In this document: in pieces, positions 1 through 36,128 of the stretch
Layout: each line of letters opens with the position of its first letter
Position numbering within the stretch: position 1 is the first letter of the stretch
Origin: Rubripirellula lacrimiformis
GTDB taxonomy: Bacteria; Planctomycetota; Planctomycetia; Pirellulales; Pirellulaceae
Length of the DNA stretch: 64,000 nucleotides
Direction: 5' to 3'
Assembly (NCBI RefSeq): GCF_007741535.1
Contig: NZ_CP036525.1
Coordinates: 6,820,001-6,884,000 of the forward strand
Made by a program: the position numbers and the translations under genes
The notes under the pieces: model-generated
What the model was told of the DNA's origin: nothing
Seen by the model: only the letters and a program-made list of their open reading frames with translations
Database searches by the model: none

Positions 1-1250
1 GCAAGACAACAGCGCACCACCCAAGACCCAATCGTTTCACCGCGTGGGCAACGCCCCGCGCGTCCCCGCAGCAAAACGCGCGGGCCGATGGCCACGCGGT
101 TAAACGACAGCGCACACCCCGAGACCCAATCGTTTAACCGCGTGGGCAACGCCCCGCGCGTCCCCGCAACCAAACGCGCGGCCCGATGGCCACGCGGTTA
201 AACGACAGCGCACACCCCGAGCCCCAATCGTTTAACCGCGTGGGCAACGCCCCGCGCGTCCCCGCAGCCAAACGCGCGGGCCGATGGCCACGCGGTTAAA
301 CGACAGCGCACACCCCAAGACCAATCGTTTCACCGCGTGGGCAACGCCCCGTGCGTCCCCGCAAACAAACGCGCGGGCCGATGGCCACGCGGTTAAACGA
401 CAGCGCACACCCCAAGCCCCAATCGTTTAACCGCGTGGGCAACGCCCCGCGCGTACCCGCAGCCAAACGCGCGGGCCGATGGCCACGCGGTTAAACGACA
501 GCGCACACCCCGAGCCCCAATCGTTTAACCGCGTGGGCAACGCCCCGCGCGTCCCCGCAACCAAACTCGAGGCCCGATGGCCACGCGGTTAAACACCAAC
601 GCACCACCCAAGACCCGATCGTTTAACCGCGTGGGCAACGCCCCGCGCGTCCCCGCAGCAAAACGCGCGGGCCGATGGCCACGCGGTTAAACGACATCGC
701 ACACCCCAAGCCCCAATCGTTTAACCGCGTGGGCAACGCCCCGTGCGCCCCCGCAGCAAAACGCGTGGGCGATGGCCACGCGGCAAAACACCAACGCACT
801 ACCCAAGCCCCAATCGTTTAACCGCGTGGGCAACGCCCCGCGCGTCCCCGCAACCAAACGCGCGGGCCGATGGCCACACGGTTAAACGACAGCGCACCAC
901 CCAAGACCCAATCGTTTAACCGCGTGGGCAACGCCCCGCGCGTACCCGCAGCCAAACGCGCGGGCCGATGGCCACGCGGTTAAACGACAGCGCACACCCC
1001 GAGCCCAATCGTTTCACCGCGCGGGCAACGCCCCGCGCGCCCCCGCAGCCAAACGCGCGGGCCGATGGCCACGCGGTTAAACGACAGCGCACACCCCAAG
1101 CCCAATCGTTTCACCGCGTGGGCAACGCCCCGCGCGTACCCGCAGCAAAACGCGCGGGCCGATGGCCACGCGGTTAAACGACAGCAGACCGCCCAAGCCG
1201 ACTCGTTTCAGCGCGTGGGCAACGCCCCGCGTATCCCCCTGGGCGAACGA
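1..1250. repeat. Tandem array of ~97-bp hairpin repeats (array 1, truncated at window start)
   Basis: About thirteen head-to-tail units start roughly every 97-98 bp (for example at 31, 129, 227, 324, 422, 520, 618, 716, 813, 911, 1008, 1105). Each unit holds a ~76-bp core with perfect 16-bp outer arms (TCGTTTAACCGCGTGG and its reverse complement). Inside is a second 9-bp inverted repeat (CCCGCGCGT/ACGCGCGGG) around a ~12-nt loop. Units are joined by a ~21-bp spacer of the type CAGCGCACACCCCGAGCCCA. Open frames through the array are repeat translations with no protein character, so I call no gene here. Homologous arrays lie at 11637, 33310 and 35613; arrays 2 and 4 are in the opposite orientation. 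Confidence 0.95.
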
Positions 1251-1267
1251 TAGCGGTACCGAACAAA

Positions 1268-1304
1268 CAAAAAATAAGCCGGCGGTGAATGATCACCGCC
1301 GGCT
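1268..1304 (-). terminator. Rho-independent terminator of rpoBC
   Basis: A perfect 12-bp stem (AGCCGGCGGTGA/TCACCGCCGGCT) with a 4-nt loop is followed, read on the minus strand, by TATTTTTTG. It lies 31 bp past the rpoC stop codon and separates the rpoBC transcript from hairpin array 1. Confidence 0.9.
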
Positions 1305-1334
1305 TTGGATGTTTATCGATACTGAATGACGCCT

Positions 1335-4300
1335 TTAGGCAGGATCCTGTCCGCCACCCAACAACTGGTCCAGCGTTTGATCGCTAGGCATATCGGCGGG
1401 TGCTTCGGCAGCTGGCATCTCTGCGGCTGGCGATGGTGATGCAGGCGATGGAGCCGCACCTTCATCAGCATTCAACAGCGGGAAGCTTTCTTCCAGGCTC
1501 TGGACAGGTGCACTGGCCAGTTCCTCGAGTGCTTCGCGGCGGTAGTTGACTTCCGATTCTTGGAAGATTCGGAAACCGGTACCGGCCGGGATCAAGTGCC
1601 CCAGGATGACGTTTTCCTTCAAACCAACCAACTTGTCGACCTTGCCGGCCAATGCCGCTTCGGTCAACACCTTGGTGGTTTCTTGGAACGACGCTGCCGA
1701 GATGAAACTGTTCGACTGAACGGCAGCCTTGGTGATCCCTAGCAACTGAGTACTAGCGGTCGCACTCTTGGGCCGTTTGCCCTTGGCAGGGTCTCCGCCC
1801 ATCGCTTCGATTTCAGCGTTGGTTTGCTCGAACACTTCCTTGGGAATGATCTGACCTTCGTGGAAATCACTTGCCCCAGGCTTCACGACTCGCAAGCACT
1901 TGGCGAGTTCGTCGTTGGCTTGGCGGAAGTGGAACCGGTCCATCACGCTGCCGGGCAACAGGTTGGTGTCACCGGCCGATTCGATCTTCACCTTACGAAG
2001 CATCCGGGCGATGATGATTTCGCAGTGCTTGTCGTTAATTTCGACCTTCTGCGATTGGTAAACCTGTTGAATTTCGTGCAGCAAGTACTGCTGAACGGCT
2101 TCTTCGCCCGAAACACGCAGGATGTCGTGCGGGACCAATGGGCCTTCGACCAAAGCTTGACCAGCCTTCACGAAGTCACCACTGTGCACTTGGAAGTGCT
2201 TCCCGTGCGGCACCAAGTGTTCGCGTTCGATCCCCGATTCGCTGCGGACGATAATCGTTCGCTTGCCACGTTTGCGTTCGGCCAAGATTTCGACTTCACC
2301 GTCGACTTCGGCGATAACGGCTGGATCCTTGGGCTTCCGAGCTTCGAAAATCTCGGTCACACGAGGCAGACCACCGGTGATGTCCGACACACCACCACCT
2401 TCACGAGGCATTTCAGCCAACACCGTACCGGCGACGATCATGTCGCCACCCTTGGCGATGATCATGGCACGTTCCGGCAGGTATTCGACGTGCAAAGCCT
2501 TGCCGTCGGCGTCTTCGACCACCATTTGTGGGTGCAGGTCACCCTTGTGATCCATGATCAGCATGCGAACGTTGCCGCTGGCTTCACGTTCGACACGCAT
2601 CGTTTCGCCTTCGACGATGTCTTCGAAACGCAGCTTCCCGTTGACTTCCGACAGAATCGGAATCGAATACGGGTTCCATTCGCAAAGCACGGTGCCTTCG
2701 TTGACTTTTTCGCCTTCTTTGACACGAATCGCAGCACCGGTCGGCACTGGGTAGGATTCGATTTCGCGACCACGGTCGTCGACCAACGCGATTTCACCGT
2801 TGCGGTTCAGCACGATTGGCACACCCTCGGTGTTTTCAACCGCACGCATCCGGGTCAGACGAACTTCGCCGGAACGCTTGCTCTTGATGTCCGATTCAAC
2901 CGACTGCTTATTCACCGATCCACCAATGTGGAACGTACGCATGGTCAACTGAGTTCCGGGTTCACCAATCGATTGGGCAGCGATGATTCCGACGGCCATG
3001 CCCTCTTCGACCAACGTACCGGTCGACATGTCCATCCCGTAACAGCAACGGCAAACCCCTAGCGGAGCGTCGCAGGTCATCGGAGTCCGAACCTGGATCT
3101 TTTCCAGCCCCATGCTTTCGATGTTACGAGCGATGTCCGGAGTGATCATTTCGTTCTCGCGAACGATCACTTCGTCGGTCACTGGGTTCACGATCGATTG
3201 GCGACTGACCCGACCATTGATCGAATCAACCAAACTGACTTCGACCTTTTCGCCGCGGTAGACAACACCCTTGGTGATCCCTTGGGTGGTGCCACAGTCG
3301 TTCATCGTGATGACCACGTTCTGTGCCACGTCGGCCAGTTTCCGAGTCAGGTACCCCGAGTCGGCTGTCTTCAGTGCCGTATCGGCCAGACCCTTTCGAG
3401 CACCGTGCGTCGACGAGAAGTATTCCAACACCGACAGGCCTTCGCGGAAGTTAGCCTTAATAGGTGTTTCGATGATTTCGCCGGTTGGCTTCGCCATCAA
3501 ACCACGCATACCGGCCAATTGACGGATCTGTTCGATACCGCCCCGAGCACCCGAGTGCGACATCAAGTACACCGGGTTGATGTACCAGCCGCCTTCGCGG
3601 ATGTCGTTCTTCATCGCCTGCATCATGTCCGTGGTGATCAACTCGCGAGCCGACGTCCATTCGTCCAGCACGTGGTTGTATCGTTCGGCCCCGGTCATCA
3701 GCCCGCGTTCGTACGACTTCTTCAGCTTCATGACTTCTTTTTCGGCCTTCTTGATGAAGTCCGTCTTGGTGTCCGGCGTCACCAAGTCATCCGTCGCGAA
3801 CGACAAACCACTTCGCGTCGATTCGCGGAAACCCGTTTGCATCATGTCGTCCAACAAGTGGATCGTCGCACGACGGCCCAAGCGTTGGTAGCAATCGCTA
3901 ATGGCAAGTGCCAAGTCACCGCTCTTCATCGGCTGGTTGTAATAGTCCATGCCGTCGGGAAGCATTTCGTTGAAACGAACACGGCCCGGAGTGGTGTCGA
4001 TGATGTCGCCATACTTGCCGTCACCGTTTTCGGTTTTCAAGCGTTGGAACTTGGGCAGACGCATCTTGATCTTCGCATGCACGGCGATGGCGCCTTGGGC
4101 GAATGCCAAGTCGACTTCGTCGTACCCCGAGAAGATCATGCCTTCGCCACGCTGGTCGGGCATTTCGGCGGTCATGTAGTAGCAACCCATGACGATGTCC
4201 TGCGACGGCGACATGATCGGCTTGCCATTACTTGGCGCGAACACGTTGTTGGTCGACATCATCAAAGTGTGGGCTTCGACTTGCGCTTCGATCGAAAGCG

Positions 4301-5708
4301 GCAAGTGAACGGCCATCTGGTCACCGTCAAAGTCGGCGTTGAAACCCTTGCAAACCAATGGGTGCAAGTGAATCGCGTTGCCTTCGACCAATACCGGTTC
4401 AAACGCTTGGATGCCCATCCGGTGCAACGTCGGTGCCCGGTTCAGCAAGACGGGGTGATTGGTGATGACCTGTTCCAGGATATCCCAAACCTCTTCGTCT
4501 TTGCGTTCCAGCATCTTCTTGGCCGACTTGATCGTGTCGGCGTGGCCGAGCTCTTTCAGGCGACGGATGATGAAGGGCTGGTACAGTTCCAACGCGATCT
4601 TCTTGGGCAATCCGCACTGGTGCAGCTTCAAGCGTGGACCGACCACGATCACGCTACGTGCCGAGTAATCGACTCGCTTGCCGAGCAGGTTTTCGCGGAA
4701 ACGACCTTGTTTCCCCTTGATCATGTCGGTCAAGGATTTCAGCGGTCGGTTCGACGAACCCAACACGGGACGCTTGCAACGGTTGTTGTCGAACAACGCA
4801 TCGACGGACTGCTGCAGCATTCGCTTTTCGTTGCGAATGATGACTTCCGGCGCGTTCAAATCGACAAGCTTACGCAGTCGGTTGTTACGGTTGATGATCC
4901 GGCGATACAGATCGTTCAAGTCGGACGTTGCGAAGTTACCGCTGTCCAGCAACACCAACGGACGCAAATCCGGAGGAATCACGGGCACGACGTCCAACAC
5001 CATCCACTCGGGACGGTTGTCGCTGTCACGGATCGATTCCACGATCTTCAGGCGGTTGATCAGGTCTTTCTTTTTCTGTTTCGATCCGGTTTCCACCAGG
5101 TCGATCCGAAGCTGTTCGGACAGCGTGACCAGGTCCAACAGGTTCAACAGTTTGCGTACCGCTTCGGCACCCATGTCGGCTTCGAACGAACCGTCACCGT
5201 ACTGTTGGCGAGCGGCGCGGTACTCTTCTTCGGTCAACAGTTGACGCGGTTCCAAGTCGGTCGTGCCGGGATCGATGACCACGTAGTCTTGGAAATAGAT
5301 GACCTTTTCAAGCGAACTGGTCTTCATGTCCAACAGGTTGCCCAAGCGCGACGGCATCGCCTTGAAGAACCAAATGTGAACAACGGGAGCGGCCAATTCG
5401 ATGTGGCCCATCCGTTTACGACGGACACGACTGTGAGTGACTTTCACACCACAGCGGTCGCAGATCATGCCCTTGTACTTCATGCCGCGGTACTTGCCGC
5501 AGGCACATTCCCAGTCCTTTTCAGGGCCGAAAATCCGTTCACAGAACAGCCCGTCTTTTTCGGGACGGTAGGTACGGTAGTTGATCGTTTCGGGCTTCTT
5601 TACTTCGCCGAACGACCACCCTTTGATGTCTTGCGGGCGGGCAAGCGAGATGCGTACCGAAGCGTAGTCGTTGATGCGATCGTAGTTGCTGGTTTCGCCA
5701 TTTGACAT
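1335..5708 (-). CDS. rpoC: DNA-directed RNA polymerase subunit beta'
   Basis: This is the catalytic beta' subunit of RNA polymerase, 1,457 residues, close to the usual length. The N-terminal zinc ribbon is visible (C-x-C-x6-C region around [20 protein letters not shown]). The catalytic aspartate loop [16 protein letters not shown] binds the active-site magnesium. The second zinc site ([13 protein letters not shown]) and trigger-loop/bridge-helix sequences are present, and the canonical C-terminal [17 protein letters not shown] segment is intact. The last ~50 residues form a Pro/Ala/Asp-rich tail beyond the conserved core. It lies 184 bp downstream of rpoB on the same strand and ends just before a strong terminator. 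No good Shine-Dalgarno precedes the ATG at 5708, but the N-terminus aligns with the family. Confidence 0.98.
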
Positions 5709-5892
5709 GGGGAACTAAGCCTTAGGTTTTAGGTGTTGGTTGTTAGGATTTAACCGCCGGGCCAGGCCCGCGTTACCACCGGCAAACGCGCGAGGGGCGA
5801 TTGCCGGTTAATCAATTCCTGTCGAGAGAGGGCAAGGTCCTAGGCGTGCTGGATTTCTCCGCACCCCCAAAACCGAATACCTAATCCCTCTC

Positions 5893-9618
<3,726 letters not shown>

Positions 9619-10232: not shown

Positions 10233-10291
10233 CCCTCTCCCCCCCGGACTGGATTCGAGTTCCACTCGAATCCAGTCCGGGGGGGAGAGGG
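10233..10291. repeat. 28-bp perfect inverted repeat with 3-nt loop
   Basis: The left arm (10233-10260) begins CCCTCTCCCCCCCGG and ends GGATTCGAGT. The right arm (10264-10291) is its exact reverse complement, and only TCC separates them. The element sits next to CCCCCCTCACCCCAG on the left. The CCCTCACCCC-type flank and G-run hairpin resemble REP/BIME-like extragenic palindromes found dispersed in many genomes. There is no U-tract, so a terminator role is less likely. Confidence 0.9.
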
Positions 10292-11636: not shown

Positions 11637-12345
11637 TCGTTTCACAACGCGTGCTCAGCAGGGCTGCGCGCTTGGTGGGTGGACGCACGGGGCGTTGCCC
11701 ACGCGGTGAAACGATCGGGGTGCGGGCGAGTGGGGATGGGGTGCGGGATGGGTGCGGGATCGCATCGTTTAACCGCGTGCCCAGCGGGCCGCGCGTTTGG
11801 TGGGTGGACGCACGGGGCGTTGCCCACGCGGTTAAACGATCGGGGTGCGGGCGAGTGGGGATGGGCACGGGTTCCCTCGTTTAACCGCGTGCCCAGCGGG
11901 CCGCGCGTTTGGTGGGTGGACGCACGGGGCGTTGCCCACGCGGTTAAACGACGGGGTGCGGGCGAGTGCGGATAGGGTGCGGGTTCGCATCGTTTAACCG
12001 CGTGCCCAGCGGGCCGCGCGTTTGGTGGGGTGGACGCACGGCGCGTTGCCCACGCGGTGAAACGATAGGGGTGCGGGCGAGTGGGGATAGGGTGCGGGTT
12101 CACATCGTTTAACCGCGTGCCCAGCGGGCCGCGCGTTTGGTGGGTGGACGCACGGGGCGTTGCCCACGCGGTTAAACGACGGGGTGCGGGTGCGTGGGGG
12201 TGCGGGTTCGCATCGTTTAACCGCGTGCCCAGCGGGCCGCGCGTTTGGTGGGGTGGACGCACGGGGCGTTGCCCACGCGGTTAAACGATCGGGTGCGGGT
12301 GCGTGGGGGTGCGGGCGAGTGGGGTGCGGGTGCGTACGAGTGGGG
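11637..12345. repeat. Tandem array of ~112-bp hairpin repeats (array 2)
   Basis: Six units start near 11637, 11765, 11877, 11990, 12105 and 12213. The ~75-bp core is homologous to array 1 but in the opposite orientation, with 15-bp arms (TCGTTTAACCGCGTG/CACGCGGTTAAACGA). The first unit is the most diverged. Spacers are G-rich (GGGGTGCGGGCGAGTGGGGAT type), ~22-37 bp and variable. The array fills the space between the convergent 3' ends of the DHS-like gene and the GH5-like gene. Confidence 0.95.
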
Positions 12346-25957: not shown

Positions 25958-26026
25958 AGTTTTGACCGAAGATGATCGGCTTGTGTTGGTTGGTTGATTT
26001 GGAATCGGTCGAACCCGACCGCAGCC

Positions 26027-27106
26027 CTAAAGAGCTTCGCCGCTGATCACTTGGCCGTCATCAATGACGCACAGATTCTTCCAAAGCGCCGCGTCGACTT
26101 GAAAGTTGAAGAATCGGACGCTGCCGTCGCAGAAACCCACATTCAGCCCACCGGTATGTGGACCGCCAAAGTATCGGTTCCAGTTGGTTCGGTTGCTGGA
26201 CGGATCGGGCGCGTAGGTGTTGAAATCAGACTTGGGTGGGAAGTGCCAACGCACCACACAGGGATCCCAACCGGGATTGTTCCAACGTTCGTTGTCGCCA
26301 CCATCACGACCATGTTGGCTTAGGTTCAATGCCTTTTCGGCGAACAGGATGGAATGCGTTGTGCCATCTTCGATATCGCTGTAGCGGCGGGCATCACCTT
26401 CGCCAGGCCAGACGATCGCTCCCTTGCTTTGATACACCAGACTGCAATTGGATCGCGATCGCGTTCCCTGCGCCGGTGCGCCCAGGGGAGCATCCGGGAT
26501 GAAGTCGACTTCGGTATCGGGTCGTCCGTGAAAGAAGCCTGCACAACCGGCGTAGTCCGTTCGGCCAAACTTCCCGCTGCCATAGCCGGTGGGGCTGCGG
26601 CGAGTCGGGCAATAGAAACCGACGACCAACGACTGCGCGACCTCGTCTTCGTTGCTGGCGTTCGTCACCGCGGGCCACGTCGGCGGGCCGTCATGACCAA
26701 GCTCGTAAACATTGCTGCCTTCCATGAAAGGCAAAATCTTGTACTGCGGACTCCAACCGCGGCGAGTTGCCGCCCGACAGCAGGCATCGGCTGGGAAGCC
26801 GGACGTGTTGGGGGTGCCCGAGGTGGTCACCGCTTCCGGGTCACCATCCATCGGTCCTTCGGGCAGCTTCTTGAACGCACTCTCGAAGTTTGCCGCAGCC
26901 AATACCATCTGCCTCAGCTGATTGCTGCACTGCATTCGCCGAGCCGACTCGCGGGCCGCCTGCACAGCGGGCAGTAGCAGCCCCACCAAGACCCCAATGA
27001 TGGCGATCACGACCAACAGTTCCACTAAGGTAAATCCGCTGCCATGATCTTCGCGGCGGCGATTATTGAAAGAACGCGTATCAGTTGGCACGGATCGAAT
27101 CTGCAT
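26027..27106 (-). CDS. DUF1559 domain prepilin-like protein (copy B)
   Basis: A 359-residue member of the large planctomycete DUF1559 family. The N-terminal leader ends HGSG before [22 protein letters not shown], a prepilin-type signal with Glu at +5. It continues with [20 protein letters not shown], the conserved helix, and the family-specific head with SILFAEKAL and the terminal [10 protein letters not shown] motif. Function is unknown; the N-terminus implies prepilin-peptidase processing and assembly into a pseudopilus or surface structure. The ATG at 27106 is taken as the start (an adjacent TTG is possible). It is closely similar to copy A just upstream, so the pair looks like a tandem duplication. 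Confidence 0.9.
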
Positions 27107-27240
27107 CAAAGGGACGGAACGTTTTTACACGAAGGAAGCGGAGTGGACGGGAAGCCGAATCGGGTCGCGAGGATCCGACCGGCGAATCGCCCCGAATCAG
27201 CCTGTTGGCACGAGGCCAACAAGCCAGGGATTCGAGGAGA

Positions 27241-27420
27241 CTAGAGCGCCGATTCTTCCTGGCTGACCGCCTGGTCTTCGGCTTCGATCTGTTGGCGGAT
27301 ATCAGCGTCCATGGGCGAAGGCGGCGGCGTTTCGCCGCAACCCACCATGGCCGTCACAGTCACCGCAGCGGCAAGCCAAAGGACGCATGCCGTCATCTTC
27401 TTCGATACCATCAAATTCAT
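27241..27420 (-). CDS. Small putative lipoprotein between two DUF1559 genes
   Basis: A 59-codon gene. The protein has a basic start (MNLMVSKK), a hydrophobic segment (ACVLWLAAAVTVTAMV) and GCGE, giving a probable lipidated cysteine near residue 28. A short Pro-rich then acidic tail follows (MDADIRQQIEAEDQAV). Its ATG overlaps the stop codon of the upstream DUF1559 gene (ATGA), a strong sign of translational coupling. Small lipoproteins next to DUF1559 genes appear to recur in planctomycetes. Inference: a partner of the DUF1559 protein, anchored in a membrane. No enzymatic motif. Confidence 0.8.
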   Translation of the reverse strand: MNLMVSKKMTACVLWLAAAVTVTAMVGCGETPPPSPMDADIRQQIEAEDQAVSQEESAL

Positions 27421-28535
27421 AGCGATCCTCCGTCGATAACTTCCATGTCGTCAACCACGCAAAGGTTTTTCCACAGCGTCGCGTCGACACTGAATGCGAA
27501 GAACCGAACGCTGCCGTCACAGAATCCAGCGTTCAAGCCGGCTGCGTGCGAGGCACCGAAATAACGGTTCCAGTTCGTGAAGGCGTCATAGGGCTGCGGT
27601 GCCGCGGGCGCGATCGTTTGATTGTCATGCTTTGGCGGGAAGTGCCAACGCAGGACACATTCGTCCCAACCAGCATTGTTCCAACGTTCGTTGTCGCCAC
27701 CATCACGGCCGTGCTGCGATTGGTGCAACGCCTTCTCGGCGAACAGGATCGAGAACGTGGTTCCGTCACGAATGTCGGCAAAGGTTCGCTTGTCACCTTC
27801 CCCAGGCCAAATGATCGCACCACCGCTCTTGTAGTTCAGACCACCATTGTCGCGAGTCCGTGTGCCCAAGGCCGGCGCACCTAGCGGAGCCTGGGGGATG
27901 AAGTCCACGGTCGAATCGGGACGACCGCTGTAGAAGCCAGCGCAACCGGCGTAGTCCGTTCGACCGAACTTCGAACTGCCATAGCCCTTCGGTGCTCGTC
28001 GGGTGGGGCAATAGAAAGTCGGCACCAGCGATTGGGCAACGACATCTTCGTTGGCATTGTTGGCAACGTTAGGCCAAGTGGGCGGATCATCGGTCGCCAG
28101 ATCGTAAACATTGTTGCCTTCCATGTAAGGCAAAATCTTGTACTGGGCGCTCCAACCATCGCGGTTCGCTGCACGGCAGCAAACATTGTTTTCGGGGTAA
28201 CCCGACGTGTTGGGTGTGCCACCGGAGGTGACGGCTTTTTGGTGTCCGTCGACAGGACCCTCGGGCAACTTTTTCCAACTGCTTTCAAAGTTCGCCGAAG
28301 CCAGACAAATCTGTTTCAGGTTGTTGGAACACTGCATTCGCCGAGCCGATTCGCGAGCCGACTGGACGGCGGGAAGCAACAGTCCAACTAAGACACCGAT
28401 GATCGCGATGACCACCAGCAATTCCACTAGCGTGAACGCCTTGGACGCAGCACGACTTCGCTTGCACAGCGATCCGTCTGCCAGGCCTTCGATCGGGGCG
28501 ATGCTCTGCGGCAGAGACACCTTGCGAATCATCAT
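27417..28535 (-). CDS. DUF1559 domain prepilin-like protein (copy A)
   Basis: A 372-residue DUF1559 protein. The ATG at 28535 (a second ATG follows directly) is chosen because GGAG lies about 8 nt upstream. The leader of ~33 residues ends SKA before [22 protein letters not shown]. The usual [20 protein letters not shown] helix, [26 protein letters not shown] block and terminal [15 protein letters not shown] follow. Its residue before the cleavage site is Ala rather than Gly. It is the first gene of a minus-strand group with the small lipoprotein, DUF1559 copy B and the protease-like lipoprotein. Confidence 0.9.
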   Translation of the reverse strand: MMIRKVSLPQSIAPIEGLADGSLCKRSRAASKAFTLVELLVVIAIIGVLVGLLLPAVQSARESARRMQCSNNLKQICLASANFESSWKKLPEGPVDGHQKAVTSGGTPNTSGYPENNVCCRAANRDGWSAQYKILPYMEGNNVYDLATDDPPTWPNVANNANEDVVAQSLVPTFYCPTRRAPKGYGSSKFGRTDYAGCAGFYSGRPDSTVDFIPQAPLGAPALGTRTRDNGGLNYKSGGAIIWPGEGDKRTFADIRDGTTFSILFAEKALHQSQHGRDGGDNERWNNAGWDECVLRWHFPPKHDNQTIAPAAPQPYDAFTNWNRYFGASHAAGLNAGFCDGSVRFFAFSVDATLWKNLCVVDDMEVIDGGSL

Positions 28536-29107
28536 CAGAATTTCTCCATGCACAACGTTTAGATTGGGATGCTCCGGATGACTTATTTCATCGCTGGAAG
28601 CATGGACCAGAGACCGACAATCGTCTCTGGCTCGTTGGCACGAAGTTGATCGAACAACCCTGTTTTGAAAAAGTGCAACGCGACCTGTTCGGGGCAAACT
28701 TCTTCATTCATTAACACACCGATCGCATGCACTTCGCAGTGTTAGGATTGCGTGAACCGCAGCCACCCCACTGGGGTGCCACGGAATCCCTGATGATCCG
28801 AGATAGGGTTAACGAACGTCTACGCCCGAGTGGGGGAAGCCCGCCACCACAGACGCGAACAGCCATCTGCACCGGAGCCCATGGGGTGGCCCCGACAGAG
28901 GCAATCGCCTTCGTAATCCGCTGGCCGTAAGGGCATGGGGAACAAAGGAATCCCGGCCGCGCACGCGTCGCGGCTCACAGAGATCGACAAACCGCTGGCA
29001 AGTTCCGCATGCGAAGAACGCCAGCGACGCGCAGCGGCGTCAGCAGCGATGGCTTGGTGCCGCGGGCCGCTGGATCAGGCTGACGGCGGACAAAGCACCC
29101 CCGCGGT
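28536..29107. other. Non-coding spacer upstream of the DUF1559 group
   Basis: 572 bp with no convincing gene. It should hold the promoter of the leftward DUF1559 group. The right part (28740-29100) is GC-rich with a small palindrome (CACCCCACTGGGGTG near 28763); open frames there have no codon structure like neighbouring genes. It may be decayed sequence. Confidence 0.5.
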
Positions 29108-30136
29108 TCAGCAGAGGTCGATGCGGCGGCCTTCGGCTTCGCTTTGTTTGGCGGCTTCGAAGATTGCAACAGCCTGGTAGGCATCGTTCAGGTCGCCCAT
29201 GTTCCGCAGCAGACTGGTGACGCTGCGGTGAAACTGAGCCAACAGTTTCTCGCCCACCGGCGACTCGGTATCCAACGTTTCCATGTTGCGGCCGGCATCA
29301 TCGAACCAAACCAGAGTGCTGGGAAGATCCAGGAAGGCGACGCCCCGCTGGCAAGAGATCTGCATCGCTGATGGTGGCCGAAATCCGGCGGCTTCGTGCC
29401 ATGTCGAATGGATGTAACTTCCGCAACTGACCTGGGCGGTGACCGCGGGCGCATCGCCATGAGCGGGAAACGCCAAACTCATGCAGCGATAGTCCGTTTG
29501 CCCACCGCTTTGGTGAGCCACCGAAGACACGGTCGTCGGTTCACACCCGACGACATAGCGGCACCAATCGATCAATTCGACCAGTTCGCGGCGGGATGGA
29601 TCCACGTTCGAATCGGGCTTCCCTGCAACGCCGTTGCCGACACCGTTCGTCATGGCGTTCGCAGGCGTGGCCTGCAACCGACGATGACAGAACATCAATT
29701 TGGGGGCGCCCAACCGGGTGGCGATCAGTTCTTTGAGCCGCAGCGTGGCCGGAGCAAATCGCCGCGGGAACTCGACCATGAAGGCCACTCCCGATTCATC
29801 GACCGCCGAGCGAACCTCGGCGTCTCGCAGTGGGTCAAAATCCAGATCGCCCGCCCAATAGACCGCTTTGCCGGCCTCGCAGGCGGCCAACACTGGCAAC
29901 CATCCCAGCCAATTCTTCTGCAACACGATGACCGCATCGATGTCGCAGCGGTTCACCAGGGCGCGATAACCATCGACGACGTCCGCCTGGAATTCGGCCG
30001 CCGTATTTTCAGCCAACTTGGCGACGGTGCTGAACACAGCCCGAACGTCAAATCGGTCGTGCAGCACGCGAAGGGCAGGCCGATGTCGGGTTTGCCAGGC
30101 ATCGCCTTGGCCGATCAATCCAATCCGCAATTTCAT
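29108..30136 (-). CDS. Gfo/Idh/MocA-family oxidoreductase, atypical
   Basis: A 342-residue protein. The N-terminal Rossmann fold begins MKLRIGLIGQGDAWQTRHRPAL, followed by FDVRAVFSTVAKLAENTAAEF and IDAVIVLQKNWLGWLPVLAACEAGKAVY, the order typical of this NAD(P)-dependent sugar/polyol dehydrogenase family. The EKP motif that supplies the catalytic lysine is absent: residues 94-97 read WAGD. The C-terminal alpha/beta domain is present. The substrate is unknown, and loss of EKP suggests altered or no dehydrogenase activity. The ATG at 30136 is chosen because it starts exactly at the Rossmann strand. Monocistronic. Confidence 0.7.
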   Translation of the reverse strand: MKLRIGLIGQGDAWQTRHRPALRVLHDRFDVRAVFSTVAKLAENTAAEFQADVVDGYRALVNRCDIDAVIVLQKNWLGWLPVLAACEAGKAVYWAGDLDFDPLRDAEVRSAVDESGVAFMVEFPRRFAPATLRLKELIATRLGAPKLMFCHRRLQATPANAMTNGVGNGVAGKPDSNVDPSRRELVELIDWCRYVVGCEPTTVSSVAHQSGGQTDYRCMSLAFPAHGDAPAVTAQVSCGSYIHSTWHEAAGFRPPSAMQISCQRGVAFLDLPSTLVWFDDAGRNMETLDTESPVGEKLLAQFHRSVTSLLRNMGDLNDAYQAVAIFEAAKQSEAEGRRIDLC

Positions 30137-30756
30137 GGCGACAGGGCCGAGGCAACGAATGAAGAACAAGAAGAACGGGGGATCCATCTGATGGACGTTG
30201 GTATTGTGCCCCAAATCGGGCTTTCCCGTGGCCCGCGCAGGAAAAAAATCTCGGATCCACCGCCTGCGTGGCGGGGGGTGACTCAATTTGTCGCACCTGA
30301 ATTGGCACGCCGGAAATCGTTTGAAGCGGTGCATTTAGACGCGCCCACCCAGCGGATCGCCCGGGGGGGAAGCAAAAATGTACCCATTTCGTCAATAGCG
30401 ATTTTTCGAAAACTTGGACGAAGGTCTTGTGACCCCGACCCGGCCCCATATACTCCGCCCAAGTTTGCCGTGCCGGAGAATCAGCAAGGTTTGCACAAAC
30501 CCCCTGATTGGCCGAATCGGTAGAAACTGTGGTTTGCCCAAGCGGTTTCGCACCATCTGTGACGGTGGCAAAAGCGAACCGATGGAGACCGCCACAGCGG
30601 ATATTGACGGGTTTTTGGCAGTTTCTAGTTTGCCGTTGGCACCAGAAACCACGTCAGGAGACTCACGGGGGAAACTACACGCGATGGATGCGGCAGCGAT
30701 TTGCCGATGCATCGGGGTGCGGTCTCCTTCTTATCTATTCACAGAGGGAACTCTCT
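30137..30756. other. Divergent intergenic region (oxidoreductase / thioredoxin)
   Basis: 620 bp between divergent genes. No coding stretch with family character is seen; upstream in-frame extensions of the thioredoxin gene look non-coding. Both promoters are presumably here, but none can be placed with confidence. Confidence 0.5.
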
Positions 30757-31149
30757 ATGGTTTTGTTACTTTTGGCAGTCGCGCTGTCCAGTATTACCAG
30801 TGAACAGCAGATGCATCAGAAGTACGCCGACGCCTACCAGGCATCGGTAGAGCAGCAGAAACCGCTGATGGTCGTGGTCGGTGCACCCTGGTGTCCGGCG
30901 TGTAACGTGTTGAAAGACACGACGATCAAGCAAATGGCCGAAATGGGCGAACTGGATTCCGTTAGCTTGGCGGTCATCAACAAGGACGAAGACCCCGAGC
31001 TGGTCAAACAACTGACCGCAGGCGATCAATTATTGCCTCAGATCATCGTCTTTACCCAAGACAACGGCCGCTGGAAACGACGCAAATTGCTGGGCTACCA
31101 ACCCAAGCAACCCGTCCGATCGCTGATCCGCAAAGCCCTCGGTGGCTAA
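30757..31149 (+). CDS. Exported thioredoxin-like protein
   Basis: A 130-residue protein with a short signal-like N-terminus (MVLLLLAVALSSITSEQQ) and a single thioredoxin domain. VVVGAPWCPAC carries the redox pair Cys46/Cys49 with Pro between them (WCPAC). A central NKDEDPELVKQL segment and the cis-proline region LLPQIIVF follow. The length and absence of other domains suggest a small periplasmic or membrane-attached disulfide reductase or isomerase. The start ATG has AGAGGGAA 7 nt upstream. A clear terminator follows at 31185, so it is probably monocistronic. Confidence 0.82.
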   Translation: MVLLLLAVALSSITSEQQMHQKYADAYQASVEQQKPLMVVVGAPWCPACNVLKDTTIKQMAEMGELDSVSLAVINKDEDPELVKQLTAGDQLLPQIIVFTQDNGRWKRRKLLGYQPKQPVRSLIRKALGG

Positions 31150-31184
31150 CGGATTCATCGCCAGCCGCGATTGAAAAGCTATTC

Positions 31185-31233
31185 GGCCTCCGTTTCCCGG
31201 GACATGCATTCCCCCGAAACGGAGGCCGTTTTG
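31185..31233 (+). terminator. Rho-independent terminator after the thioredoxin gene
   Basis: A perfect 12-bp stem, GGCCTCCGTTTC (31185-31196) with GAAACGGAGGCC (31216-31227), around a 19-nt loop and followed by GTTTT. It lies 36 bp past the stop codon. Confidence 0.85.
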
Positions 31234-31412
31234 CGTTCACAGCCAACCGCGATCCGGCGACACCGCCAAAAGCGATCTGTGCAGATTCACCCGGGTGGTC
31301 TGTTCTTTGACGCCAATTCGCTATCCTATGATCCAGAACTCACTGTTTCGGGACCGGCCGCAGGGCGTCCGATTCCGAATGAACCCCGCATTTGCCGAGA
31401 GACCGCCCGCTG

Positions 31413-32291
31413 ATGACTTTTCCGGACGACTTGAATCATCTGATTCGAAACGATGAACCGCTGGGCCCGTTGGTTTGGCTTGGCATTGGTGGTCCGGCAC
31501 ATTATTTCGCCGAACCGGTGGAAGAAGCCGAGATCGAACGCCTAGTTGCCGCCGCAGCCGCCGCGAACCTGCCGGTACGCATCCTGGGTGACGGCAGCAA
31601 TGTGCTGGTTCGCGAATCCGGCGTCGACGGTCTGGTGATCTCGCTGTCGGCCGCGGCGACCAGCGGGATGTCGATCGACGGCACACGCATGACCGCAGGT
31701 GCCGGCGCCAAGCTTTCTCACGCGGTGATCAAAGCCGTCGGTGCCGGGCTGGGCGGGCTGGAACACCTGGTCGGTATCCCGGGCAGCGTTGGCGGGGCGG
31801 TCGTGGGCAATGCGTCCAGCGACGGTCGCGACATCGGTTCGGTGGTGCACAGCGTCACGGTGCTGGAAAAAGACGGATCGCGGCGCACCCTGTCGCAGGA
31901 CGAGATCGGATTTTCGCACCGCAAGTCGTCGATGAGCGGTCTGATCGTGCTAAGCGTGACTTTCGAACTGGAATCGCGAGATGTCGAATCGCTGACCAAA
32001 CGAATGCAGAAACTTTGGATCGGTCGCAACGCGTCACGACCAAGCGAAGAACGCCGGATCACGATGCCGTTTATCGATCCCGACGGCATGCCGACCAAGG
32101 ATCTGATCCAGTCGGTGGGGTTGGCAGGCCTTCGCGAAGGCGATGTTTCGCTGGATTCCAATCAACCGCACTACATCGTTGCCCATTCGGGGGCCACCAG
32201 CGATCAATGCTTGCGTTTGATTGAACGCGTCCGCGAACAGGTTTTGCTGCAAACCGGGATCGACTTGCAGCTGAACCTGCAAATTTGGTAA
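31413..32291 (+). CDS. murB: MurB-like FAD-binding protein (UDP-N-acetylenolpyruvoylglucosamine reductase family)
   Basis: A 292-residue protein matching MurB over its length. The FAD-binding motifs are present: GDGSNVLV at 60-67 and GIPGSVGGAVVGNAS at 121-135, then the SHRKS arginine (Arg170, usually YR). The C-terminal domain follows the family pattern (KDLIQSVGLAGLREGD... HYIVAHSGATS). Two residues expected to be catalytic are not seen: the serine of GS-x-FKNP aligns with Met218 (TMPFIDP), and the final glutamate of LEPEV aligns with Asn288 (LQLNL). It may be a divergent MurB or a non-catalytic paralogue. The start at 31413 fits the family. It is followed 120 bp later by an FtsQ-like gene, as in division/cell-wall clusters. 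Confidence 0.78.
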   Translation: MTFPDDLNHLIRNDEPLGPLVWLGIGGPAHYFAEPVEEAEIERLVAAAAAANLPVRILGDGSNVLVRESGVDGLVISLSAAATSGMSIDGTRMTAGAGAKLSHAVIKAVGAGLGGLEHLVGIPGSVGGAVVGNASSDGRDIGSVVHSVTVLEKDGSRRTLSQDEIGFSHRKSSMSGLIVLSVTFELESRDVESLTKRMQKLWIGRNASRPSEERRITMPFIDPDGMPTKDLIQSVGLAGLREGDVSLDSNQPHYIVAHSGATSDQCLRLIERVREQVLLQTGIDLQLNLQIW

Positions 32292-32411
32292 CTGAAAGGG
32301 TGTCGGTTCCGAGCGTCGGTCCGGCGGTTTATTTTCAGTTTCCCGTCCCATAGCGCAATCCCCATCACATCGGGGGGGATTGGCAGTGGTTGGATTGATA
32401 AGGGCGTGCCC

Positions 32412-33281
32412 ATGGCGATGCGATCGGCTGAACCCGAAACGAATCGGCCGATCCGTGACACGCTGCGGCGGCTGATCAAGGCACCCGCGGCGCTATCGAT
32501 TCTGTGGCCAGCACTGCTGATTGTCGGTGGCTATGTCACCTGGCACCGCTGGGGATCCGAACACGTCGCCCAGAACTACTACGGCATCGACGTCGCTCAA
32601 ATCCACATCACCCAACCTCCTAGCTACGTCCGCAGCGATATCATCCAGTCCGTTTACCGCGACACGGCGATGGACGGATTGTCGTTGATGGACAAGCAAG
32701 CGACCGCCAAGATCGCGTCCGCATTTTCGATGCACCCCTGGGTGCAAAGCGTGACCAGCGTCCGGAAATTGCCAGGCGGTGTCGTCGACGTCCGCATGGA
32801 TTACCGTCGTCCGGTCGCGATGGTGCAAGTGTTTCGGACCGTCGATGGAATTCGTGATAAGTTTTTTTTCCCGATCGATGGCCACGCCGTGCTGTTGCCG
32901 ACGGGCGAATTCACGAGATCAGAAACCCTAGAGTTCGTGCACATTGACGTCCCCGGGGCCGACTCGACCAATGCCGAAGGGATGCCCTTTGGGGACCCTC
33001 GCGTCGAAGCGGCCGCCCGCTTGGCCGAAGTGCTGTTGCCGGTGTACCGCGAGGTCGGCATCCGCAAGATCACCGTCGTCGGCGACCCGCGACAAATCCA
33101 AGTGCCCCAGCTAGAAGTGACGACCGACAACGACACCCGGCATCACTGGGGCAGCCCACCCGGACTAGAGATCCCCGGGGAAAGAACGGCCGAGATGAAA
33201 CTGCGAGCGTTGATGGCGGTGCGAGGCAACACGCCCATCGATCTACGAGTGGCGACGATGGCCGACCCCGGCCATTCGTGA
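32412..33281 (+). CDS. FtsQ-like protein with N-terminal membrane helix and POTRA-like domain
   Basis: A 289-residue bitopic membrane protein. A basic cytoplasmic tail (residues 1-27) precedes one transmembrane helix (ALSILWPALLIVGGYVTW, ~27-44). A POTRA-like domain follows (VRSDIIQSVYRD... LSLMDKQATAKIASAFSMHPWVQSVTSVRKLPGGVVDVRMDYRRPVAMVQV, ~residues 62-140), the arrangement of FtsQ/DivIB. The remaining ~150 residues resemble the beta domain loosely. The position right after murB matches the classical murB-ftsQ order. Pirellulaceae lack FtsZ, so the role may be in peptidoglycan or division without FtsZ. The ATG at 32412 has AAGGG 7 nt upstream; a GTG at 32406 is less likely. Confidence 0.7.
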   Translation: MAMRSAEPETNRPIRDTLRRLIKAPAALSILWPALLIVGGYVTWHRWGSEHVAQNYYGIDVAQIHITQPPSYVRSDIIQSVYRDTAMDGLSLMDKQATAKIASAFSMHPWVQSVTSVRKLPGGVVDVRMDYRRPVAMVQVFRTVDGIRDKFFFPIDGHAVLLPTGEFTRSETLEFVHIDVPGADSTNAEGMPFGDPRVEAAARLAEVLLPVYREVGIRKITVVGDPRQIQVPQLEVTTDNDTRHHWGSPPGLEIPGERTAEMKLRALMAVRGNTPIDLRVATMADPGHS

Positions 33282-33309
33282 GACAACGCCAATCCAGATC
33301 CCCACACCG

Positions 33310-33627
33310 TGCCGTGCGCCTATCCCAAAAACGCGCGGCCAGATGGGCACGCGGCTAAACGACCAAAACCGGCCCATCGTACGCACCCCCATCGTACGCA
33401 CCCCCATCGTACGCACCCCATCGTACGCACCCCATCGTACGCACCCCCATCGTTTAACCGCGTGGGCATCGCCCCGTGCGTCCACCCACCCCAACGCGCG
33501 GCCCGCCCCGCACGCGGCTAAACGACCAAAACCGGCCCATCCCGCACCCCATCGTTTAACCGCGTGGGCATCGCCCCGTGCGTCCATCCACCCCAACGCG
33601 CGGCCAGATGGGCACGCGGCTAAACGA
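33310..33627. repeat. Hairpin repeat array 3 with embedded 15-bp tandem repeat
   Basis: Two full hairpin units (cores starting near 33450 and 33552) and one partial unit at the left, in the orientation of array 1. The arms are TTTAACCGCGTG and CACGCGGCTAAA, one position differing from perfect pairing. Between the partial and first full unit lie five copies of a 14-16-bp sequence, CATCGTACGCACCCC, at 33374-33449. The array sits between the convergent 3' ends of the FtsQ-like gene and recQ. Confidence 0.93.
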
Positions 33628-33662
33628 GCGACCCCAGCACCATCGTGCCAGATGATCGCACT

Positions 33663-35510
33663 TTACTTCGCGTCGTTGCCGACGTTCAGTTCACGGCAGT
33701 ACTGCTGGATCGCTTCGACAAACGCGTCGCCGAAGTCTTCCAGTTTTCGTGCGCCCACACCCTTGATGCTCGCGAACTGATCCAGCGTTTGTGGTTGGTG
33801 CCTGGCAAATTCTCGCAGCGCGGCGTCGCCAAAAATCACGTAGGCCGGCACGTTCCGCTCGGTCGCGATCTGTCGCCGCAACTCGCGAAGCGAATCGAAC
33901 AGCCCACGCTGGACCCCGTCCCAAGTGTCGCCCGATTTTGCTGATGGAGATCGGGATTTACCGGACCGCCGAGTCGGCGTCGCCACCGACAAACGGGGAT
34001 CCCCATCGCGGCGCAGCAGCCGACGTCCGGCATCGGTCAACGACAGAGTCTGATATTCGCCGCTGCGACACAGGTATTCCTGTTGAACCAGTTGGTCGAT
34101 CCACATCCGCACTGCCGGCAACCCGTCTTTGGTCAGCAAACCGTAGGTGCTGAGCTTGTCATGTCCGAGTTCACGGATTCGCTGCTCCCCCGATCCGCAT
34201 AGAACTTTGGCGGTATGCCCGACCCCAAATCGCTCCCGCAACCGAATCACACAGGACAGGATTTTTTGGCTTAGCGTGATCGGATCGTCCACCAAATCGA
34301 TCTCGTCCAAACACACATCACAGGCGCCACAGTTGTCGGCCGCATGGCTTTGGCCGAAGTACTGGACCAACGATCGGTGGCGACAAACCGTGCCCGCGCA
34401 AACATTGAACATTGCGTCCAACGATGCGACCGCCGCCTGATACGACGACGGCTCGCTCTCCATGATCTTCTTCCAGGTCACCACGTCGCCACCGGAATAG
34501 AACAGCACACATTCCGATTCCAAACCATCGCGCCCCGCTCGACCACTTTCCTGTTGATAGTGTTCAATCGACTTCGGCATGCCGGCGTGCACGACATAGC
34601 GGACATTCGATTTATCGATGCCCATCCCGAAGGCGACCGTTGCAACGATGACGTCGCACTTGTCTTTGATGAACGCGTCTTGGTTGGCCTTGCGAATCGA
34701 GTCGTCCAGGCCCGCGTGATAGGGCAGCGCCGAAGTACCGCCGGCGACCAATGCCGCCGCCGTCTTTTCGACCTCTTTGCGGCTGATGCAATACACGACG
34801 CCCGATTCGCCGCGATGGCGACCGACAACGTCGATGACTTGGCCGAGTCGCCCGTCGGCGCGGATCATCCGGTAGGTCAGATTCGGCCGATCGAAGTCGC
34901 CGACGATGATCTCCGGTTTCCGCAGCCCCAACTGGCTGGCGATATCGTCGCGGACCGACTCGGACGCCGTTGCCGTGTAGGCGTGGACCGATGCCTTGGG
35001 GAACTGATCCTTCAACATCCGCAGCCCACGATACTCGGGCCTAAAATCGTGCCCCCAATTGCTGATGCAGTGAGCTTCGTCGATGGCAAAGAACGAAATG
35101 TTTTGTTGACGCAGGAAATCCAGCGTCCGGGCCGCCAGCAAACGCTCGGGCGCGACGTACAAGAGTTTCAATTCGCCACTGCGAATCCGGTCCGCGACCT
35201 CGCGTTTTTCGTCGTCCGATTGAGTGCTGTTGACGAACGCGGCCGACACGCCGCACGCAAGCAGCGAATCGACTTGGTCCTTCATCAGCGAAATCAATGG
35301 CGAAACGACCACTGCCATCCCATCGTGGCACAGGGCAGGGACTTGGAAGCACAGCGATTTCCCGCCACCGGTCGGCAGCACCGTCAGCGAATCGCGACCG
35401 CCCAGAACACAGTCGATCGATTCCTCCTGCAGCGGCCGAAACGTGTCGTAGCCCCAGACGTCGCGCAGCACGCGGTGCACTTGTTTGGGCTTCTCTGCTT
35501 CCGCTGTCAT
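33663..35510 (-). CDS. recQ: ATP-dependent DNA helicase RecQ
   Basis: A 615-residue 3'-5' SF2 helicase for recombination and fork repair. Domains run in order: motif 0/Q-motif (GYDTFRPLQEESI, residues 20-32), Walker A (LPTGGGKS, 45-52), DEAH box (144-147) followed by CISNWGHDFRPEY. The second RecA domain carries GMGIDKSNVRYVVHAGMPKSIEHYQQESGRAGRDG. A zinc-binding RQC region follows (CRHRSLVQYFG... CGACDVC), then winged helix, and a C-terminal HRDC domain (PAYVIFGDAALREFARHQPQTLDQFASIKGVGARKLEDFG). The ATG at 35510 gives the standard N-terminus; upstream in-frame sequence is hairpin-repeat DNA and is excluded. Both sides are flanked by hairpin arrays. Confidence 0.95.
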   Translation of the reverse strand: MTAEAEKPKQVHRVLRDVWGYDTFRPLQEESIDCVLGGRDSLTVLPTGGGKSLCFQVPALCHDGMAVVVSPLISLMKDQVDSLLACGVSAAFVNSTQSDDEKREVADRIRSGELKLLYVAPERLLAARTLDFLRQQNISFFAIDEAHCISNWGHDFRPEYRGLRMLKDQFPKASVHAYTATASESVRDDIASQLGLRKPEIIVGDFDRPNLTYRMIRADGRLGQVIDVVGRHRGESGVVYCISRKEVEKTAAALVAGGTSALPYHAGLDDSIRKANQDAFIKDKCDVIVATVAFGMGIDKSNVRYVVHAGMPKSIEHYQQESGRAGRDGLESECVLFYSGGDVVTWKKIMESEPSSYQAAVASLDAMFNVCAGTVCRHRSLVQYFGQSHAADNCGACDVCLDEIDLVDDPITLSQKILSCVIRLRERFGVGHTAKVLCGSGEQRIRELGHDKLSTYGLLTKDGLPAVRMWIDQLVQQEYLCRSGEYQTLSLTDAGRRLLRRDGDPRLSVATPTRRSGKSRSPSAKSGDTWDGVQRGLFDSLRELRRQIATERNVPAYVIFGDAALREFARHQPQTLDQFASIKGVGARKLEDFGDAFVEAIQQYCRELNVGNDAK

Positions 35511-35612
35511 CCGTTTCGCTCCTGGGCGTCTGATTTCTGCACTATGACGGCGAGCGAAGGGATCGGCAAGAAGCCCGCCCGAATCGCGTCGACGGGGACG
35601 GGCCGGTGCAGG

Positions 35613-36128
35613 TCGTTTAGCTGTGTGCCCGGCGGGCCGCGCGTGGGGGTGGGTGGACGCGCGGGGCGATGCCCACGCGGTTAAACGATGGGGTGCGGGC
35701 GGGTGGGGGATGGGTCGGTTTTGGTCGTTTAGCCGCGTGCCCAGCGGGCCGCGCGTTGGCGGTGGATGGACGCGCGGGGCGATGCCCACGCGGTTAAACG
35801 ATGGGGTGCGGGGGGGTGGGGGATGGGTCGGTTTTGGTCGTTTAGCCGCGTGCCCAGCGGGCCGCGCGTTGGCGGTGGATGGACGCACGGGGCGATGCCC
35901 ACGCGGTTAAACGATCGGGTGGGGGTGGGTCGGTTTTGGTCGTTTAGCCGCGTGCGGGGTGGGCCGCGCGTTGGCGGCGGATGGACGCACGGGGCGATGC
36001 CCCCGCGGTTAAACGATCGGGTGCGGGCGGGTGGGGGATGGGTCGGTTTTGGTCGTTTAGCCGCGTGCGGGGCGGGCCGCGCGTGGGGGTGGATGGACGC
36101 GTGGGGCGATGCCCACGCGGTTAAACGA
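35613..36128. repeat. Tandem array of ~102-113-bp hairpin repeats (array 4)
   Basis: Five units start near 35613, 35725, 35838, 35940 and 36053, in the orientation of array 2. Cores begin TCGTTTAGCCGCGTG and end CACGCGGTTAAACGA; one arm carries a G that would be G-U in RNA. Spacers are GATGGGGTGCGGGCGGGTGG-like and end GGTCGGTTTTGG. The array lies between the 3' end of the kinase gene and the 5' end of recQ, so the recQ promoter probably lies in the ~100 bp between the array and 35510. Confidence 0.95.

Follow-up and report, generated by a model that had tools for sequence, protein, structure and literature searches.

The 64,000-bp stretch of the Rubripirellula lacrimiformis chromosome analysed here (NZ_CP036525.1, positions 6,820,001 to 6,884,000, in the following called the window) harbors four arrays of short inverted units. 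These arrays are, with high confidence, composed of REPINs (REP doublets forming hairpins), which are non-autonomous mobile elements of about 76 bp consisting of two inverted repetitive extragenic palindromic (REP) sequences, and their cognate enzyme is a 204-amino acid REP-associated tyrosine transposase (RAYT) of the HUH/Y1 type. A preliminary description of the window had offered four options for these repeats, a RAYT-mobilised REP-like element among them. This option fits, since a RAYT is present among the same repeats in this genome as well as in a second genus.

The units are 75–77 bp long and their edges are TCGTTTAAC and its complement. Each edge is the outer part of a REP of approximately 31 nt, in which the head TCGTTTAAC is followed by six nucleotides and then by a bulged mini-hairpin with a 3-nt loop, so that the arm reads inwards as TCGTTTAAC-CGCGTG-XYZ-ANC-Z'Y'X'-CCGCG. 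These arms were studied in a sample of 1.664 Mb of the own genome, consisting of seven blocks, several of which were picked for known arrays. Of the 348 clustered arms in this sample, 304 are complementary at all three pairs of XYZ/Z'Y'X' (GGC/GCC in 163, CCC/GGG in 132, and GCC/GGC in 9 arms), and the loop is ATC, AAC, AGC, or ACC in 327. Among the distinct mini-hairpin variants 74 of 101 pair, compared to a mean of 34.6 and a maximum of 49 in 2,000 shuffles, a comparison which ignores the relatedness of the variants. Including the flanking CGCG/CGCG, the mini-hairpin as read from the sequence comprises about eight pairs and one bulged T. The foot, that is GTG before the stem plus the X with which it enters the stem, is GTGG in 165 and GTGC in 152 of the 348 arms, and the last G or two of the GTGG foot pair within the stem.

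Judged by its sequence, each arm is a bulged palindrome behind a constant head and thus built like a REP, and a unit consists of two such REPs in inverted orientation. An inner inverted repeat had been noted before as a second stem. This palindrome does exist, but as a stem that joins the two arms it is less well explained than as a mini-hairpin within each arm, because the pairing within the arm is kept (304/348) while the two arms of the own units differ in type.

The 15-bp arm TCGTTTAACCGCGTG was found 1,088 times (560 + 528, up to two mismatches) in the chromosome of 8,542,491 bp, and a 27-nt pattern 1,025 times (525 + 500, up to three mismatches). Since the reversed controls give 16 (8 + 8) and 0 (0 + 0) matches, respectively, a chance origin of the repeats is excluded. 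The search of the genome and of its relatives for the core, as the preliminary description had proposed, revealed many further copies and also a linked RAYT.

In relatives, the repeats are unevenly distributed. The exact two-arm pattern is present in 22 stretches from 10 assemblies among 84,980 genomes, and the labels of these assemblies are all planctomycete, namely Rubripirellula obstinata, metagenome-assembled genomes (MAGs) labelled as Fuerstiella, Schlesneria, and Kuenenia, as well as Planctomycetota. The 27-nt pattern has any match in 22 of 147 relatives. More than 15 matches were obtained only for the own genome (G000; 1,025), R. obstinata (G031, same genus, 310 contigs; 551), G037 (from a genus designated g7, one contig of 7,250,512 bp; 298), G068 (37), and G055 (20).

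The transposase gives a sub-threshold match to the Pfam family Y1_Tnp (21.6 bits, cut-off 23) at 5.22 Mb of the own chromosome, in a locus packed with arms. The RAYT gene is encoded once (G000:C1:5222195-5222806) and is the single match of this RAYT subfamily in the genome. The NCBIfam model REP_Tyr_transpos is matched with an E-value of 4e-12 and 46 bits, which is under its cut-off of 80 bits. A protein search returned 1,529 homologues, and many of the best 120 are labelled 'REP element-mobilizing transposase RayT' by JGI. Within 57 aligned homologues H102, H104, W151, Y172, and N176 are invariant and P177 is present in 56; W is followed by A or T in 38, the residue preceding HVH is mostly E or Q, and the tyrosine motif reads YVxxNP. 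Alignment and structure comparison place the HUH motif and the catalytic tyrosine of the Y1 fold in the own RAYT.

The AlphaFold model of the protein has a predicted local distance difference test score (pLDDT) of 82 and a predicted template modeling score (pTM) of 0.79, with residues 18–46 poorly modelled. Seven fold matches in the PDB have an E-value of 0.001 or lower, namely ISDra2 (five chains), an IS200 transposase, and the RAYT-REP complex 4er8, and IS608 follows at 1.4e-3; the template modeling scores by query length are moderate (0.39–0.43 for these seven matches, 0.39–0.45 in all). A sequence search of the PDB displayed among its eight listed matches only a weak one to a transposase (2f4f, E-value of 0.75), and the kinship becomes visible by fold.

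Ten Pfam Y1 matches at an E-value of 0.1 or lower are present in the own genome, one of them being the RAYT. Seven others were checked, two weak matches at 7.42 and 7.43 Mb being excluded, and none is surrounded by arms except for one doubtful match with two mismatches in locus L009. Likewise, all Y1 matches of R. obstinata (16) and G037 (6) were inspected and none has arms on both sides.

The RAYT locus itself is embedded in the repeats, as its 1.5-kb flanks contain 5 arm matches upstream and 13 downstream (up to three mismatches). In a family survey, 30 of 241 genomes contain a RAYT homologue at an E-value of 1e-30 or lower. The closest one, 72% identical, is encoded by G273, a genome of one contig, which belongs to genus g7 and thus to another genus than R. 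lacrimiformis. This RAYT also lies inside a tandem array, its two sides having 10 and 11 arm matches within a 3-kb stretch, and most of the units are of the C+G kind explained below. The whole genome of G273 contains 171 + 190 pattern matches vs. 0 + 0 in the control.

The head motif GTTTARC was counted within 350-bp flanks of 18 RAYT loci of the subfamily (about 100 bits or more) and of 26 control loci with other Y1_Tnp genes, which remained of 30 after the exclusion of 4 loci shorter than 3.1 kb. Among the 18 subfamily loci, 11 have the motif on both sides and 13 in at least one flank, vs. 0 and 4 of the 26 others. Its density is 4.37 per kb in the subfamily flanks vs. 0.27 at the other Y1 loci, with a genome background of 0.055. 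The hairpin in these flanks varies by lineage and is often GCC-GNA-GGC. The foot is GTAG or GTGG at L073 and L079, and other tetranucleotides are found at L074, L080, L081, L083, and L087. The foot CCGA was observed at L075 and L087 alone, with other feet elsewhere. At L075 and L076 the ends read GTTTGAC and GGTTAGCGAC, and the flanks of L085, L089, and L091 contain no GTTTARC-type head. Read from these sequences, the published GTAG/GTGG tag is partly present and the constant part is the head GTTTARC. About a dozen RAYT-REP pairs with one head and a varying foot and hairpin represent natural material for learning what a RAYT reads.

Apart from this subfamily, the own Y1 genes L010/L011 (2.85 Mb) and L012 (7.49 Mb) are flanked by other inverted repeats (AAAAGGTGTCAGGACTCTTTT and CATCCCAACCCGAAGCGTGAGCGAGGGA), and several REP-like systems may coexist in the genome. 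A Y1 gene of R. obstinata (L140, G031:C35:13000-18500) has nearby inverted repeats which read TCGTTTGCTCCGCCGG in one direction, perhaps another variant of the TCGTTT head.

The two ends of a unit are not alike. The sample of the own genome contains 174 paired units, of which about 4 look by eye like chance pairs, and 165 span 73–80 bp. With the ends typed by their hairpins as G, C, or M, the 131 units in which both arms were typed are 122 G+C and 9 G+M, and no like-ended unit is present; 43 of the 174 units with an untyped arm were left out of this count. With less strict typing, 119 of 167 units are unlike and 0 are like. Units of genus g7, taken from the RAYT locus of G273 and from 14 stretches of G037 picked from listed arm matches, are G+C in 34 of 39 cases, with 5 untyped and none like-ended. 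In R. obstinata, however, 14 of 19 units are G+G and no typed unit is unlike. The 16 units of other named loci comprise 3 C+C, 5 C+G, 1 C+M, and 7 with an untyped arm. The rule of unlike ends is consequently valid in two genera, but not everywhere. Exclusive heterodimers are known for some GTAG REP families, as stated in the part of the work on these families considered here (PMC3733652). The lack of any like-ended unit (0/131 in the own sample, 0/34 in genus g7) represents a clean case for the published puzzle of frequent REP heterodimers.

With respect to genes, the 25 multi-arm clusters of the own sample, which contain the 348 arms, are placed 15 times between convergent and 10 times between co-directional genes; none is located between divergent genes or inside a gene. 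Convergent gaps make up 17% of the gaps and 20% of the gap length, which corresponds to an excess with p-values of 2e-6 and 1e-5, whereas for divergent gaps (19 and 24%) the deficit has p-values of 0.004 and 0.001. This count omits 32 of the 57 own clusters, which consist of a single arm match and are probably due to chance; 24 of these lie inside genes. The preliminary description had held that a lack of further copies, or a random placement with both stems broken, would speak against its view of the repeats; within the own genome copies are abundant and the clusters are intergenic.

One insertion site can be compared directly. The gap that corresponds to array 3 of the window has 381 bp in the own genome and only 19 bp between the stop codons in the congener G028, where it contains no arms. 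Four congeners with a close match to the adjacent recQ gene were compared, of which one is informative since the left neighbour is kept only in G028, and no arms are present in any of the four recQ loci. The placement after genes is most readily understood as harmless insertions having survived, and a function in termination or at mRNA ends is possible.

Several observations weigh against REPINs moved by this RAYT. By minimum energy, all four window units examined fold into a long hairpin with interruptions rather than into the mini-hairpin form. The left mini-hairpin is present in the centroid fold of two of them, and folding by itself does not discriminate between the two forms. That the units can form hairpins is shown by the z-scores of these DNA folds, −2.67 to −7.47, and their energies are −23 to −38 kcal/mol vs. 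−51 kcal/mol for a like-ended unit of R. obstinata. GTTTARC is absent from both flanks of 5 of the 18 subfamily RAYT loci and is present on one side only in 2. Excision, insertion polymorphism, and target duplication were not seen, no search having been aimed at them. Furthermore, R. obstinata and G037 contain 551 and 298 arms, respectively, and no RAYT of the subfamily at an E-value of 1e-3 or lower; this negative result applies to all 21 other genomes of the own genus, R. obstinata among them. For G037 the simplest reading of the sequences is that the RAYT was lost, as suggested by its congener G273, which holds both REPINs and RAYT, and the two genomes represent a natural test of the fate of REPINs after the loss of the RAYT. 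The gene calls used for the placement stem from our own hexamer method. In 0.69 Mb of R. obstinata the 24 multi-arm sites are 13 co-directional, 7 convergent, 3 divergent, and 1 at an edge; here the convergent preference (7/23) is not significant (p-values of 0.09 for gap number and 0.07 for gap length), and the divergent sites (3/23) have p-values of 0.24 and 0.07. A convergent-gap bias is not established in this species.

A further point of this kind is that the REPIN in R. obstinata is carried mid-way in a different, larger dispersed element (e.g., L027, L229–L263). Of 19 units examined, 17 can be oriented by shared flanks and lie within an element of about 145 bp with 15-bp inverted ends, CCCAACGCCGTGAAG...CTTCACGGCGTTGGG, some of them decayed. 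Copies of the end CCCAACGCCGTGAAG are located within 150 bp of an arm in 35 of 38 cases, and 3 are away from any arm. By these sequences, the REPIN of R. obstinata probably is, or was, a passenger of the larger element.

This passenger is also what would speak for ordinary miniature inverted-repeat transposable elements (MITEs) of a DNA transposon, with the RAYT present by chance, as R. obstinata shows no cognate RAYT. However, the conserved part stops at the REP heads both in the own genome and in genus g7, and the flanks differ there between most arrays. In two genera RAYTs are also found amid the repeats, and the ends carried by related RAYTs are related as well, which makes MITEs very improbable; the transposase searches behind this comparison covered the Y1 and IntI types. 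Even less credible are integron attC sites. Their core boxes are R'' (RYYYAAC) and R' (GTTRRRY), to which GTTTAAC and GTTAAAC fit, but an inverted repeat that fits one box necessarily fits the other. Two matches to TIGR02249 above the cut-off are present in the own genome and some units of R. obstinata follow single genes in series, whereas the own units are parted by short gene-free spacers. The arms pair over 15 bp without a break, while in attC the two box pairs are separated by spacers according to the portion of PMC8352920 considered here. Moreover, G003 (53 arms), G004 (103 arms), and G009 (60 arms), all incomplete MAGs, display no IntI match above the cut-off, and the repeats flank RAYTs, with no arm closer than 1.5 kb to the two own IntI genes above the cut-off (L014 and L015). 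As cassettes are missing, the arms are unbroken, and IntI is not linked to the repeats, an identity as attC was rejected.

A function at gene ends deserves more weight, although it is still considered unlikely. The hairpins would then be kept as functional RNA or DNA parts, for example as bidirectional terminators, stabilisers of mRNA 3' ends, or gyrase/nucleoid sites, and the link to the RAYT would be secondary, which is compatible with REPINs. The 15 convergent and 0 divergent sites among the 25 own clusters are in line with such a function, and so are the RNA folds of the two tested units, which are stable for both strands. Nevertheless, tolerated insertion accounts for the same placement, the same convergent gene pair has a gap of 19 bp without arms in G028, and in R. 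obstinata the bias does not reach significance. Beyond the own genome and R. obstinata, 20 other genomes of the genus contain at most two arm matches each, and arrays of up to 18 paired units exceed the need of a terminator. Mobile REPINs remain the preferred reading of the arrays.

Regarding integrases, the own genome contains IntI-like genes above the cut-off at 0.19 and 2.97 Mb. In addition, sets of integrase-like genes with equal TIGR02249 scores are located near 0.17–0.20, 1.92–1.94, and 4.31–4.34 Mb, perhaps a triplicated recombinase cluster.

The arrays of REPINs are highly ordered. None of 20 arrays with at least two paired units mixes directions, and the start-to-start spacing within an array mostly varies by no more than a few bases (96–129 bp depending on the array), with exceptions at 276 kb, 1.03, 5.22, and 6.09 Mb. 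The median identity of spacers is 0.86 within arrays (596 pairs, 17 arrays, 137 spacers) and 0.45 between arrays (1,986 pairs, using the first four spacers of each array). Because spacers are alike within but not between arrays, the arrays probably grew in place from a founder and some of its flank. Spacers common to separate arrays were found at 888 kb, 910 kb, and 6.09 Mb as well as in arrays 3 and 4 of the window, and arrays were probably also copied occasionally. With 18 paired units in a cluster of 38 arms, one array is the largest of the sample. In a hand count, the direction of the units relative to GC skew is 15 against 8. Practically, the arrays falsely extend open reading frames (ORFs) and may fragment draft assemblies of planctomycetes.

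The preliminary description knew of no described repeat class with this structure. This claim does not hold, as inverted REP doublets, tandem clusters, and a clover fold were described in Pseudomonas in 2011. In the sections of this work considered here (Bertels and Rainey, 2011, PMC3116915), the REPINs of P. fluorescens SBW25 are inverted REP doublets that fold into a hairpin, which form an intergenic population with a cluster beside each RAYT. They also occur in ordered tandem clusters of near-identical REPINs including the flanks, for which a hairpin and a clover form are proposed as alternatives, and tandem arrays of 12 REPs are mentioned. The sequence and the head differ from those reported here, and the largest cluster of REPINs given there has four REPINs and a REP, in contrast to 18 paired units.

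The REP super-families tagged GTAG or CGTC (Di Nocera et al., 2013, PMC3733652) are, in the text considered, likewise short tagged palindromes, mostly located between co-directional and convergent genes. Several of these families have dimers that are often or exclusively formed by unlike units, RAYT genes flanked by REPs occur, and several REP families are reported in R. baltica. The tag of the GTAG super-family is an unpaired GTAG or GTGG tetranucleotide located 0–2 nt 5' of the hairpin. In contrast to these super-families, a constant GTTTARC head stands here 5' of the foot, and a foot resembling GTAG/GTGG is restricted to some arms and loci (own G-type arms, L073, L079). The text of that paper does not contain GTTTAA, its consensus figures lying outside this text search. 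The CGTC super-family is defined by its tag and by the lack of a transposase, whereas the own arms have no CGTC foot and a transposase is linked to them.

On the protein side, the TnpAREP of E. coli with its REPs and bacterial interspersed mosaic elements (4er8; PMC8266576, as far as its text was considered) shares the predicted fold, the HUH and tyrosine residues, and substrates with a 5' tag and a bulged hairpin. In a structural alignment the identity is only 12%, tag and loop differ, and the own RAYT is known from sequence and model. Class 3 of the TnpAY1 proteins from Planctomycetes and Acidobacteria (Quentin et al., 2018, PMC6006769, same limitation) resembles it in being planctomycete Y1 proteins with atypical flanking hairpins and a high copy number in some genomes, and in the W followed by A or T (38/57 here). 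The flanking hairpins of class 3 have a CnGA foot, and CCGA is seen here in some relatives (L087, and L075 with its GTTTGAC head). Class 3, however, has Y----Q and an N before HVH, while here YVxxNP (N176 in 57/57, P177 in 56/57 homologues) and mostly E or Q are found.

REP-RAYT systems, REPINs, tandem clusters, heterodimers, and REPs of R. baltica are thus already in print, and the constant GTTTARC head looks new. No description of this REP family was found in the literature on planctomycete repeats, RAYT, REPIN, or Pirellulaceae, which was covered mostly through open-access texts without the consensus figures of PMC3733652, so that an earlier listing is possible. In the parts of PMC8266576 considered, the experiments on REP recognition deal with GTAG systems of Proteobacteria.

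Mechanistically, the literature on IS200/IS605 and TnpAREP (PMC8266576, in part) suggests that a RAYT acts on single-stranded REPs by reading a 5' tag and a hairpin and cutting nearby with its tyrosine. By analogy, the two unlike REP ends would fold when the DNA becomes single-stranded during replication or repair. The RAYT would recognise the head and/or the foot together with the hairpin, where head, foot, or both may serve as the tag, and its tyrosine would cleave near the REPs and join the element elsewhere. Founders in gaps after genes would survive selection, and a founder with little flanking DNA could become a tandem array in place by slippage, unequal recombination, or strand transfer by the RAYT. 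Bertels and Rainey proposed that the RAYT recognises the less stable clover fold and not the long hairpin (PMC3116915, part of the text). The imperfect long hairpin that is predicted for unlike ends fits this proposal.

More tentatively, and with clear doubt, one might go further and see here an additional tagged REP super-family that extends over Planctomycetota, with a constant GTTTARC head 5' of a variable foot and a RAYT subclass whose key motifs match no published row exactly. A working REPIN would then carry ends of different type, one G and one C hairpin, as in IS200/IS605. Such a pair could not close into a single perfect long hairpin, each REP would stay able to fold for the transposase, and the element would gain a direction. 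Strand transfer by the RAYT, and not slippage by the host, may build the long directional arrays, as the gene sits among the repeats in both RAYT-bearing genomes examined.

In the window, repeat finding and a fuzzy arm scan recovered all four arrays of 75–77-bp inverted units where they had been placed before, and arrays 1 and 3 run one way and arrays 2 and 4 the other, also as described. The copy numbers, given earlier as about 13, 6, 2.5, and 5, were refined. Array 1 (1..1249, plus strand) consists of 12 paired REPIN units at a distance of 97–98 bp and a partial unit at its right end. It fills a convergent gap, its cluster starts 65 bp left of the window, and its right neighbour is the minus-strand ORF 1335-5708. 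Its unit at 228..303 (plus strand) serves as an example, with the left head TCGTTTAAC at 228-236, the left mini-hairpin GGC-AAC-GCC at 243-251, a variable centre, and the inverted right REP, whose head is at 295-303. The DNA fold of this unit has −38.4 kcal/mol and a z-score of −7.47, and 0 of 200 shuffles are equally stable. Array 2 (11637..12336, minus strand) has five paired units and a decayed one and lies in a convergent gap as well. Array 3 (33330..33627, plus strand) has two units and a half unit in the convergent gap between ORF 32406-33281 (plus strand) and recQ (minus strand). Array 4 (35613..36128, minus strand) has five units and lies between the 3' end of ORF 36180-37634 (minus strand) and the 5' side of recQ. 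By our gene calls three of the arrays (1, 2, and 3) are thus located in convergent gaps, not two as noted before. An Rfam scan of the window revealed no family that reaches its gathering score.

The recQ-like ORF (33663..35888, minus strand) has arrays 3 and 4 on its two sides, and its first approximately 100 codons overlap array 4. Because these codons run into the array, the true recQ start is probably further inside than the start of the ORF, and for the four closest recQ matches of the same genus the alignment begins only at query residue 106–134. The array-derived part of the translation (window 35500-35888) matches many arrays in six-frame searches, and predicted proteins may carry N-termini derived from the repeats. 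Within array 3, at 33372-33453, a mini-satellite of 14–15 bp, CCCCATCGTACGCAC, is present, which is apparently spacer DNA that was multiplied without the REPIN.

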